Assembly (NCBI RefSeq): GCF_022201045.2
Contig: NC_068560.1
Coordinates: forward strand, 30,397,501 to 30,461,500
Reading direction: 5' to 3'
Source of the DNA: Citrus sinensis
Taxonomy: Eukaryota; Streptophyta; Magnoliopsida; Sapindales; Rutaceae
DNA length: 64,000 nt
The notes below the pieces were generated by a model that was not told where the DNA came from, did no database searches, and saw only the letters and a list, made by a program, of their open reading frames with translations. A program made the translations under genes and the position numbers. Below are positions 6,741-11,525 of the stretch, piece after piece (position 1 is the first letter of the stretch; every line of letters starts with the position of its first letter).

Positions 6741-8626
6741 AAATGAAACCAAAGTCGATTGAAAATGCTATGAATTTATTAGAATGCCATGCTCATTAAG
6801 CTCCAGTGCAGCGTAAGCTTTGCTGATCGGAAAAGAAACGGATGGAGATTTGATTTGATATGAAATCGACACTAGAGATTTGCTTAAGCCGTAAGAGTCT
6901 AGGGTTTGTTGCACATTTTCGTAACCAAGTCTGTACATGATGATGATCAAGTGTTCATACAGTGATGGCGTGTTCCCTTCCCAAGATCATTGAGCTTTTA
7001 TTTATTTATTAAACAAATATGTTTATGTGTCTTAATAACTAATATTCGTAGTTACTTAAAAAAAGAATTATTATTATTATTTGGAAATCAAACTCCTTAT
7101 CCGCCCACTTCCACTCGTGCCCCAAACCTCTATTAATTAGACTTTGTATTACGAGATTCAATTAAATGAGTTAAACTTCAAGTTCGAAAATAATAATAAT
7201 AATAATAAATAAAGAAATAAAACTTTCTTATTGTAGAATCAACCAACCAAACTTTCCCACCACTGCGCATTGAAGTCTTTAATAATCGAAATTATTTTCT
7301 GTTAAAAAAATTGAAATTGAAGCTCCTAAAGGTTGCCCATGCCATAATGAAGCATTGAGTTGAAACTATTGTTGTTTTTGTTTTGTCAAAACAAAATATT
7401 ATTTTTGTTGACTCAAAATTAACACTATCTGTATCTAGCATAACGGTCAATAAGATGTTTACTTATGTATATTTGAGTAAATTTCCAATCATTATTTTTT
7501 GGTTTATATTATGGGTCGTGATGTGGAAGGTAAAATTGAGTGTCAGTAATGTCTAAATTGTGTAGAATTCATAACAAAACTCAGTTAAAAATCATGGTTA
7601 TAAATAGTGTTAAAGTAATTTGGGTAGAACAAAGTCCAAATCACCAAGACAATGAAAACATGGTGCTAAACTTGAATTGCTTAAGGATGGTAATGGGTAC
7701 CGTCCGCGATAGATTTGTCATTATTAAATCTAAATACGCCTAAAATCTAAATTATCAAATCCATCCGTAACCTATTGTAGGTTTTAATTTTTTAAATAAA
7801 ATTCACCAATTGCAAATTTTGACAACTATCAAATCCGCAATGGTACGAGGTAGATTTTTTGTTGATTTCCACATTCAAAATCACAAATGTTTAATATGTA
7901 AATTTATAATAATTGCCTAAAATTCCACACAGCATACTCAATTCTAAATTTAACCAATGTAAATGAAAAATTAAAATCTCAATATCCATCCAACACAAAT
8001 TCTCAAATTTAAGTATAAAATACACAAATCTATAAAAAAAAAAAACCACAAGTTAGTATCAAGAAATAACAATTATCATTTTATATTATCATTCAACACA
8101 AGTTCTAAGAAAAGTCTTCATTGTGTTCACCACCAATAGTACCCTTCTAACACGATTCCTACAATAATATTTTCTAAAGATTAATACTTTTTTTTTAAAA
8201 TACTAATCCGAAAAACAAAATTTTAATAATGAAATAATTCATGCACTGAGTTAAAGAATGATAGTCCATATAAAATTATAATAAGTATATAATAATTCAT
8301 GCATTAAGTTAATTGCAACTTGCAGACACATTTGCACTTTGCATTATTTACTTTATATATTTTTAGATTTAAATATTTTCAATTAAAATTAAATTAAAAA
8401 TATATTAAAAGGCTGCGGGTTGGCGGATACACATGCTGGTATCTATCGAATATTTGGTTAATACCAAACATACTTGCAACCTAATGCGGGTTTCAATTTA
8501 TAATACCAAACTTGCATGCAACCCACAAAATTACCCGCATAGGTGGATTTAGGAGGTTTGTAGATACAATTAACATCTATAGAACTACCCCCAACTAATA
8601 AATAGAAAAAAAAAATTTTACCCGAA

Positions 8627-8664: not shown

Positions 8665-8702
8665 GTTTTTATCCCCCCAAAAGATTTAGAAATTATATAT
8701 TT

Positions 8703-9653
8703 GAGTTTTGCTATTTGCCCCGGGTCAAACCCCGAAAGTAATAAAGGAACAACGTCGTTTCAATCTTTTTTTTTTCCTCATTCAAGTTAAACGACGTCGT
8801 TTTGGCAAAATTGTTACAGTCCAAATTGGTTGCTCTCTGTCTTCGTCTCACAGCCCCTTTCCCCTTCATTCTTGGTTGAGGCAAAATCAATAACAGCCTC
8901 AAATTGCTTTCTCTTTCCCTTCGTCTCATAGCTTCTTTCTCCTTTTATTTCTCTATTTCGCTTCACCTTCGTTTCACAGCCACCATCACGCACCCACCAC
9001 ACCGACAGCCATCAGCGTGGCAGCCACCATCACGCAGGGTTCCATCACAAATACCCAGCCATCAGGGCAAAAGTGACCTTCTACCTACTAATTTGACGAA
9101 AACTAATTCAGAAAGGGCAAATATGAGACCATGGAGTGCAGATCCTAGGATATCCCAAACAAAACCCATGATTTATTATCTGTCAGTAATGTCGCCGTAT
9201 CTATCAGAATCTAAATCCAGTGCAATTATAGTCATAGCAGCTGTTATTATCACGACAACATTTATCATTGCAGCATTCAGTTTATTCTTCACTAGAAAAT
9301 AATCAAATAGGGTGGAAAAAACTAACGATGATGATGCCAAAAGAGTAGCAGTTGATGCCGAAAGATAGGCTTAGGCATATGCATACATGCGACTATCTGC
9401 AGCACTTAGAAAACCCAGAACAATAAAAGCTAGGGTGAGTTTTAAATCAAGAGGAGTGGGAAAGGTTTTAAATACGAAATATGCAGGCCACAAGATCAAA
9501 GCAGTCAAAGGCCACCCAGCAACTGCAACAATTTTACCAAAACGACGTCGTTTTAGAACTTGGTTAAGGAAAAAAATAGAGGGATTGAAACGACGTCGTT
9601 TATTACTTTCAGAATTTGACCCGAGATTTGACTTGCGATACCTAGCATTTTCC
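8703..9653. mobile_element. Mutator-like (possible Pack-MULE) element with ~115-bp TIRs and 9-bp TSD
   Basis: A 951-bp element flanked by perfect 9-bp duplications TATATATTT (8694-8702 and 9654-9662). The left terminus reads GAGTTTTGCTATTTGCC and the right, on the minus strand, GGAAAATGCTAGGTATCGC. Both continue into CGGGTCAAA, GAAAGTAATAAA, CGTCGTTTCAATC, CAAGTT, ACGACGTCGTTTTGG and AAAATTGTT, in the same order over about 115 bases. Each TIR carries two ACGACGTCGT-type palindromes (the outermost left one is degraded). No transposase is present. The interior (8904-9302) is open for 132 codons from a TTG; its first ATG, at 9123, would give 59 residues ending in a hydrophobic helix followed by FFTRK. 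Long TIRs with a 9-bp duplication define Mutator-like elements. That the interior is a captured host fragment is inference. Confidence 0.85.
8904..9302 (+). other. Open frame with predicted membrane helix inside the Mutator-like element
   Basis: An open frame of 132 codons inside the 8703-9653 element, with no ATG until 9123. It contains a His/Pro/Ser-rich stretch and ends in a ~20-residue Ile/Ala/Thr-rich hydrophobic segment with a basic stop-transfer end (FFTRK). This resembles a receptor-like single-pass segment. I do not recognise the protein. It could be a fragment captured by the element or a chance frame; no promoter or splice evidence supports expression. Confidence 0.3.
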
Positions 9654-10247
9654 TATATATTTATATAAACCACGGACAACACGGGCGGCTTCAGCCCACA
9701 CGTGCTTAATACTGACAGTCCTCAAGTCCTTAACGGCAGGCCGTTTCGAAGTTTAATGCACAACGCCCAATCATATTTCCGCGCGCTTCTTAAAAATAAT
9801 GATAAAAAATCTGCAGCCTCGAAAGTTTCCAAGGTCTGGGCTCTTCAGCCAATCAGCATTAGTTATATGCCCATGTGGACATAAAACATAAAAAGATTCG
9901 TCAGCTCCGTTCAACTCGGCAAATTCTCTCTCCTCCTCCTCCTCCTCCTCTGCAACTGCAGCCACCAGGTTCGTCGTCTCCCTCTCATTCACTTGTTTCC
10001 TCATAATTGCATACACAATTTCACTCGCGCATCCAACTAAAAATATTGATGTAAAACCGTTATATCCGCTCATCAATTTCAACCCCACTGACACATCAAT
10101 TTATTTGGAAAAAAAAAAGAAAAAAATAAACCCTAGATTTCTCGATCCTTTAAATAAAAGAAAAGCCATCTTTACCTTAATCTTCTAGCAAGTTCCATCT
10201 TTTTACATTTAGAAAACCACCCTTTGCTGCTCTAGGGGTGGTTTTTA

Positions 10248-11525
10248 ATGGAACTTCAATTGGTGAAAAACGCGTTGAATTTCTCTCGGAGAAGAAAGAA
10301 GTGGTTGATTTTGTTAGCTCTGCTTGGGGTCTCTAGTTATGGGGCTTACAAGGTTTATAATTTACCTTCTGTGGCAAAGAAGAGGGCGAGACTAATCAAT
10401 CTGTTAACAGCTTTGGGGAATGTAGTTGAACTGGTTTCTGATTCTTCGGAGATGATGAGTGTTGTCTGTAAAGATTTAAAGGATTTTTTGCAGTCTGATT
10501 CTGACCAAATTCCCAATAGTTTAAAGCAAATTTCTAAGATTGCTAGATCCGAGGAGTTCTCTCAGTCTTTGATTAGGCTTTCTGAGGCTGTCACAGTAGG
10601 GATTTTGCGTGGGTACAAGATAAACTCAATAAATGAGAATGATACGGGAATTGGTTCTGTAAGTTCGAGTTTTAGTGATAGGGTAATGGATAGGGTTTTC
10701 TCTACTGCTGGTACTGGCTTTGTTTCGGTTGTGGTAGGTAGTTTTGCCAGGAACTTGGTTTTGGGATTTTACTCAACTGGTGCTGCGGTCGGTGGATTGG
10801 GCATGAGTGATCAGGCAAATGTAGTGCGTTGTGGGGAGGGGTCATCAGATGTGCCCAAATGGGTAAATGTGGTTTGTGACGACAAGTGTAAGGAACTGAT
10901 AGCTGATTGCATACAGAAGTTTGTGAGCACAGCTATTGCAGTTTATCTTGACAAAACGATGGATATCAATGTTTATGAAGAGCTTTTCACTGGTTTGACC
11001 AATCCCAAGCATCAAAACAACGTGAGGGATATTTTGGTTTCTGTCTGTAATGGTGCCATGGAAACACTTGTGAAAACTTCTCACCAGGTTTTGACTAGTT
11101 CTACATCTAATTCTACGCATCCGAGTGTTGAACATACTGATGGGGGATATGAAACTAAAGATCATTGTTTTGAGCAAGAAGAGGTTTTGAAACCATTGAA
11201 TGGGGGAAGCTCATATGATGGGATCCAGAGTAGCGGATGGGTCAGGCAGGTTTCTTCTACCTTGGCTGTCCCCAGCAATAGAAAATTTGTGCTTGATGTG
11301 ACTGGAAGAGTGACGTTTGAAACCATAAGATCCATTGTGGAGTTCTTGTTTTGGAAGATAGCTGATGTTCTTAAAAGAAGTTCTCATGTAGTTCGTGAGG
11401 AGGTAGTGGACAGGGGATTGGAAGTTATCAGATATGTTGGTGCAAAGTCTTCAGTTATAATTACCATATGTCTGGCTTTGTATTTACATGTCCTGAGTGG
11501 TACTAGAGTTCTCTTGCCTGCTTAA
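10248..11525 (+). CDS. PHLOEM PROTEIN 2-LIKE A10-type membrane protein
   Basis: A single-exon ORF of 425 codons with an ATG start and TAA stop. A short basic N-terminus (NFSRRRKKW) precedes a hydrophobic segment at about residues 18-36. A conserved-looking block follows, with [21 protein letters not shown] and [20 protein letters not shown] second helix lies near the C-terminus (about 402-422). This arrangement matches plant proteins catalogued as PHLOEM PROTEIN 2-LIKE A10. That name is inherited from annotation: I see no PP2 lectin core, so a lectin role should not be assumed. Location in an internal membrane, with both ends anchored, is inference from the two helices. The function of the family is unknown to me. 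An upstream non-coding exon is possible but not proven. Confidence 0.85.

Follow-up and report, generated by a model that had tools for sequence, protein, structure and literature searches.

The 951-bp element at positions 8703-9653 of the window (the whole 64,000-nucleotide stretch of DNA that was analysed) is an ordinary and well-supported Pack-MULE, a new example of a well-known kind, whose end architecture is notable. It is very probable that this non-autonomous element was moved in trans by the FAR1-MULE-SWIM (Jittery-like) transposase of its own family and inserted with a 9-bp duplication, an ancestral copy having captured 455 bp of a purine permease exon and then transposed. Pack-MULEs are said to be the subject of the 2004 work of Jiang et al.

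At the structural level, the element is flanked on both sides by TATATATTT (8694-8702 and 9654-9662), whose copies match at 9/9 positions. The perfect 9-bp target-site duplications (TSDs) announced in an earlier reading of the DNA, hereafter the sequence-only reading, are thus borne out, and their length is that expected of MULEs (9 bp, range 8-11). The terminal inverted repeats (TIRs) are long, as in MULEs: the left one (8703-8820, forward strand) opens with a type A tip (GAGTTTTGCTATTTG...), the right one (9519-9653, reverse strand) with a type B tip (GGAAAATGCTAGG... read inwards), and element positions 19-118 pair with 820-921 at 80% over 106 columns. Each end contains two sites of the ACGACGTCGT type, located at 8749-8758 and 8791-8800 on the left and at 9542-9551 (inner) and 9590-9599 (outer) on the right. 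Two self-complementary sites had been claimed for each TIR; the number stands and three of the four sites are exact, but the outer left one, ACAACGTCGT, is not self-complementary because it carries one mismatch. The interior comprises a subterminal segment (8821-9065, forward strand) common to sister elements that lack the permease piece, whose matches reach element position 361-363, about ten bases (around 9066-9074) at the left edge of the captured piece that lie outside both neighbouring segments, and the captured fragment itself (9075-9529, reverse strand). As befits a Pack-MULE, no transposase was found in the element: it has no stretch of at least 40 bases unshared with the other elements read, the sister copy included, and Pfam is blank on its open frame. 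TIRs of about 115 bp around an interior devoid of transposase were therefore correctly read. An empty site for the window insertion was not found in this genome. Of the two flanks of the insertion, only the left one is repetitive: at about 8050-8580 it consists of a roughly 500-bp dispersed repeat, of which dozens of copies exist, most of them at 70-82% identity. A 425-aa open frame (10248-11525, forward strand) starts about 0.6 kb downstream of the element; Pfam assigns it to no family, and it presumably resembles the plant 'phloem protein 2-like A10' proteins.

The sequence-only reading had staked its case on other copies sharing these TIRs, and such copies exist, both the sister described below and further two-ended elements. 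The search covered 299.7 Mb in 11 contigs and returned at least 130 matches, distributed over C1 to C9, with 40 of 106 candidates scored, so that all counts are lower bounds. Among the places listed, 25 were read (L001, L005-L008 and L015-L034), of which 19, counting the window element, allowed both ends to be set. Left out were L027, L028 and L030, with one end unrecognised by the two window-derived queries, the deletion relics L015 and L016, and L031, where a single end was seen. At the ends as set, 9-bp TSDs are perfect in 11/19 elements and carry at most one mismatch in 17/19, a count favoured by the partial use of the duplications in placing the ends; in a displaced control, with the left 9-mers moved by 9-59 bp, the corresponding figures are 19/969 and 21/969. 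L005 and L007 are the two elements that fall short, and in each a shift of one end brings the match to 8/9. Two members carry pieces of other genes. The piece in L018 is of the protein kinase type (Pkinase, 5.6e-22), and the sequence elsewhere that matches it best is C7:25233799-25234445, at 91% over 647 bases. L034 contains a piece of an SNF2-type remodeller (3.1e-10 to CHD4 in a PDB search; no match in Pfam); the sequence adjoining this piece is 95% identical to C5:37909486-37909935, which makes a same-gene origin a candidate only, and the piece also adjoins a dispersed repeat for which about 38 further places were listed.

Relatives carrying a transposase were sought with the Pfam MULE domain, which gave at least 150 matches, with 150 of 899 candidates scored. 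When 30 MULE-domain loci with 1.5-kb flanks were compared with the TIR queries, only L036 matched, and it combines one family end with a transposase. The 5.5-kb element at C3:18468887-18474425 has both a type A tip (29/30 against the query string) and a type B tip (25/30), two copies of the TSD TTTTCCTAT, and a transposase split into four pieces that are 94, 93, 88 and 85% identical to the 741-aa frame of L065. The latter locus, on C1, displays a type B end and, after it, the 741-aa frame, which is uninterrupted and comprises FAR1 (67-153), MULE (274-368) and SWIM (560-586) domains; the second end of L065 is absent from the 6.5 kb read. L032 (5.8 kb) has ends that match, a one-mismatch TSD and a transposase broken into several pieces; two frames of L032 found no match in Pfam. 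For the L063 transposase, a candidate end (L090) lies about 1.2 kb away, and a second one is absent from the 1.5 kb read (L107). Ends like those of the window element are consequently present in elements with MULE transposase, both of them in C3:18468887-18474425 and L032 and one in L065 and L036. The identity of the window TIRs to those of transposase-carrying elements is moderate, with 86% over 73 columns (L094) and 73-74% over 103 (L106, L065). The transposase is broken, in the parts read, in the two elements with both ends, and none of the relatives is picked as the working copy. Taken with the sister copies and the sister's empty sites, these like-ended relatives support the assignment to non-autonomous MULEs made from the letters of the window, and the FAR1-type transposase of the family would have cut out and inserted the element by acting in trans on its ends. 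Three further observations concern these loci. The order of A and B ends relative to the transposase in L032 is opposite to that in C3:18468887-18474425 and L065, as if either the interior or the ends had been swapped. Directly outside the left tip of C3:18468887, at about 51-106 of L094, there is a reversed tip-like string together with a ATGACGTCGT site, as if that element had inserted at or beside the end of another one. In L065 (4349-6499) the 741-aa frame is followed by what looks by eye like a Copia-type retrotransposon frame, which may have separated it from its other end.

The paired palindromes of the TIRs are a family trait of the ends. Across 43 family ends, recovered by queries (the whole element or its ends) that themselves contain the sites, there are 1.26 sites per end at one mismatch or fewer, against 0.002 in single-base shuffles, and 34/43 ends hold two sites at up to two mismatches, spaced by 36-52 bp (mean 46.1, sd 2.7), a distance that does not correspond to an integral number of helical turns. 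Although well conserved in these ends, the sites share this property with the GTCAAACCC blocks and a T-tract, for which reason conservation alone does not single them out. Throughout the genome AAACGACGTCGTTT occurs at 144 places, compared with 9 for the reversed control. Location was analysed for the first 50 places listed, from C1 to part of C3, 15 of which fall in or just beside family matches. In the 314 bp fetched around each of the remaining 35 (and around one of the 15), a MULE tip was recognised 40-83 bp outside the palindrome in 18/35 cases, with scores of 19-27 out of 28 where 200 single-base shuffles reach at most 18; L084 has a tip score of 21 on the wrong side and was not counted. 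Together, 33 of the first 50 listed copies are thus situated in or beside family ends. The other 17 divide into ten copies in a second repeat family and seven, L084 included, in neither. This second family (L074, L076, L087, L089, L091, L093, L095, L096, L097 and L102) bears AAACGACGTCGTTT and, in part, nearby sites like TGACGTCA, and is devoid of MULE tips.

Two functions, both of which the sequence-only reading had suggested, can be envisaged for these palindromes, namely transposase binding and service as bZIP/ACGT-type sites. GACGTC is a C-box-like core, and this resemblance in sequence, along with the location of the element about 0.6 kb upstream of the ATG of the 425-aa frame, would fit with their being chiefly host bZIP-type regulatory sites carried into promoters instead of sites of transposase recognition. 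This explanation seems improbable, though worth weighing, since the pairs recur at a mean spacing of 46 bp in 34/43 ends, those of transposase-carrying elements among them, and since the two repeat families contain or adjoin 43 of the first 50 listed copies. Because of the latter figure most of the AAACGACGTCGTTT enrichment needs no free-standing promoter motif, and free-standing promoter palindromes were rejected as its main source. The paired arrangement thus favours a function in the element over a host promoter motif, and the palindromes would be the best candidates for transposase-binding sites. Among the open-licence papers listed, judged by title, none pointed to the pattern in plant transposons or TIRs, which is weak evidence.

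In addition to the palindromes, the ends are distinguished by two tip types, A (GAGTTCTGCTAT) and B (GGAAAATGCTA). By likeness of the first seven bases, every two-ended element (19/19) joins one end of each type. Descent of the 19 from a single ancestor whose ends were already unlike may be all that lies behind this, and descent fits because for 37/43 ends the most similar end in another element, outside the tip, is of the same type; a requirement for unlike ends would also explain the pattern. A bolder and rather doubtful proposal is that the paired palindromes, about 46 bp apart, and the unlike tips together constitute the recognition code of a FAR1-type MULE transposase, in which a pair would be bound at each end and only A would be synapsed with B. 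Such a code would have seeded many of the genomic AAACGACGTCGTTT copies (33 of the first 50 listed), with those of the window element preceding a long open frame by about 0.6 kb, and might be usable by host FAR1-derived or bZIP regulators.

With respect to the interior, the stretch 9075-9529 aligns with the opposite strand of C9:33499638-33500092 at 94.07% identity over 455 ungapped bases. The donor frame on C9 is a purine permease (Pfam PUNUT, PF16913, 320 bits), so that the element contains a fragment of an identified host gene whose donor is kept elsewhere in the genome. Capture of a host fragment had been proposed from the letters of the window, on the understanding that a donor gene should exist, and this part of the proposal is confirmed. 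When the donor coding stretch was used as a query, it was found at five places in the genome: the donor, the window copy, a sister on C3 and two deletion relics on C3 that retain 39 bases of the donor-like stretch. The permease fragment of the sister still scores 109 bits against PUNUT and has no stop in the permease frame, compared with three stops in the window copy. The ancestral copy would have gained the 455 bp in reverse orientation while a gap in its interior was being repaired, probably through a template switch. At the right junction, GTTACAG at the inner edge of the TIR, as several sister ends have it, resembles GTTGCAG of the donor, a short likeness consistent with such a switch.

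Movement after the capture is manifested by the sister at C3:28773112.., which is 90% identical over 760 bp, has both tips and is flanked by its own TSD, AACCTAAAG, twice. It is deleted for about element positions 32-189 and as a consequence lacks both left palindromes. Its site is a duplicated region. Of the element, the paralogues L015 and L016 there keep no more than roughly 170 bp at the right end; four further paralogues (L066-L069) are empty sites and present AACCTAAAG a single time, at the 9-bp overlap between the two flank matches. L015, L016, L017 and L066-L069 (C3:28.69-29.38 Mb) form a cluster of closely alike duplicated segments that by eye resemble TIR-domain resistance genes on the minus strand; the sister Pack-MULE, together with its deletion relics, serves as a marker of the duplication order in this cluster. 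In principle, two elements could have captured the same permease exon independently, and the K2P distance between window and sister (0.077) is in fact slightly above that of each one to the donor (0.062 for the window, 0.050 for the sister). This is very unlikely, given that the fragment has identical ends in both copies and aligns free of gaps, that the subterminal sequence is common at 90% over 760 bp and that eight differences from the donor are shared (19 are found in the window copy only and 14 in the sister only); the K2P pattern also fits a donor held back by selection. A single capture followed by transposition is accordingly preferred: two copies with the same capture occupy different sites, hence the element transposed after capture. 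With T = k/2r and the non-coding Citrus rate of 5.62e-9 given in the accessible part of PMC6466647, the split between window and sister would be about 6.8 million years old, if organism and rate apply.

Finally, the sequence-only reading had drawn its sign of capture from an internal frame (8904-9302, forward strand) of 132 aa with a TTG start and a hydrophobic stretch at its end, interpreted as a receptor-like membrane helix. Capture was the right conclusion reached for the wrong reason, because from 9075 on the frame runs against the permease gene, in antisense to its codons, and the aligned frame of the sister contains a TAG stop. That this frame is a gene is very unlikely, and a used small membrane protein or a captured receptor fragment can be dismissed almost entirely: the frame is open and ends hydrophobic, yet this stretch is the complement of permease codons, Pfam gives nothing for it, the sister frame is interrupted and TTG would be its start in a plant nuclear genome. 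A used membrane protein was accordingly rejected. Small RNAs could mediate an action of the antisense piece on the permease gene, a candidate effect only.

The importance of this case lies in that one genome links a Pack-MULE to its donor, to a sister copy along with the empty target sites of that sister, and to relatives that carry a transposase, which is why capture and later movement rest on sequence evidence and not on a guess. The paired palindromes and unlike tips provide, besides, a testable model of recognition by FAR1-type MULE transposases, which bears on the origin of FAR1/FHY3-type host regulators from such transposases. No Pack-MULE with a purine permease was found in the open-licence literature. 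Several known systems are close to the one described here. Like the Mutator-type MITE families of six Citrus species (PMC6466647), the element is short, non-autonomous, of Mutator type and near genes; that survey removed elements above 800 bp and, in its accessible part, reports no autonomous partner for the active family DTM63. In grapevine (PMC2528002, as far as its available text goes), transposons with transduplicated gene fragments include MULEs, and antisense capture with a proposed antisense effect is described as well, in that case for a CACTA element with a piece of a PPR gene, unlike the MULE studied here. CitMule, the FAR1-MULE-SWIM elements of clementine (Terol et al. 2015, PMC4334395), agrees in its FAR1, MULE and SWIM transposase domains and its 9-bp AT-rich TSDs. 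In contrast to the long TIRs of the window element, those of CitMule are short and degenerate (17 bp at 100%, 34 bp at 88% and 65 bp at 78%), and the accessible part of that paper makes no mention of a captured gene. One of five published CitMule TSD strings (TTTTGAATT) occurs, once in each, in a group of MULEs with a 737-aa frame (L046-L049), a coincidence that is uninformative alone. In the accessible part of PMC6446971, which cites the 2004 Pack-MULE work of Jiang et al., a table with an incomplete TSD entry gives FAR1 for some other MULE groups too. With Pack-MULEs the element shares MULE TIRs, a 9-bp TSD, the lack of a transposase, a host fragment whose donor is kept and more than one copy after capture; it differs from them in a fragment that is antisense to the element's longest open frame and in TIRs that combine two ACGACGTCGT-type sites per end with two distinct tip types.
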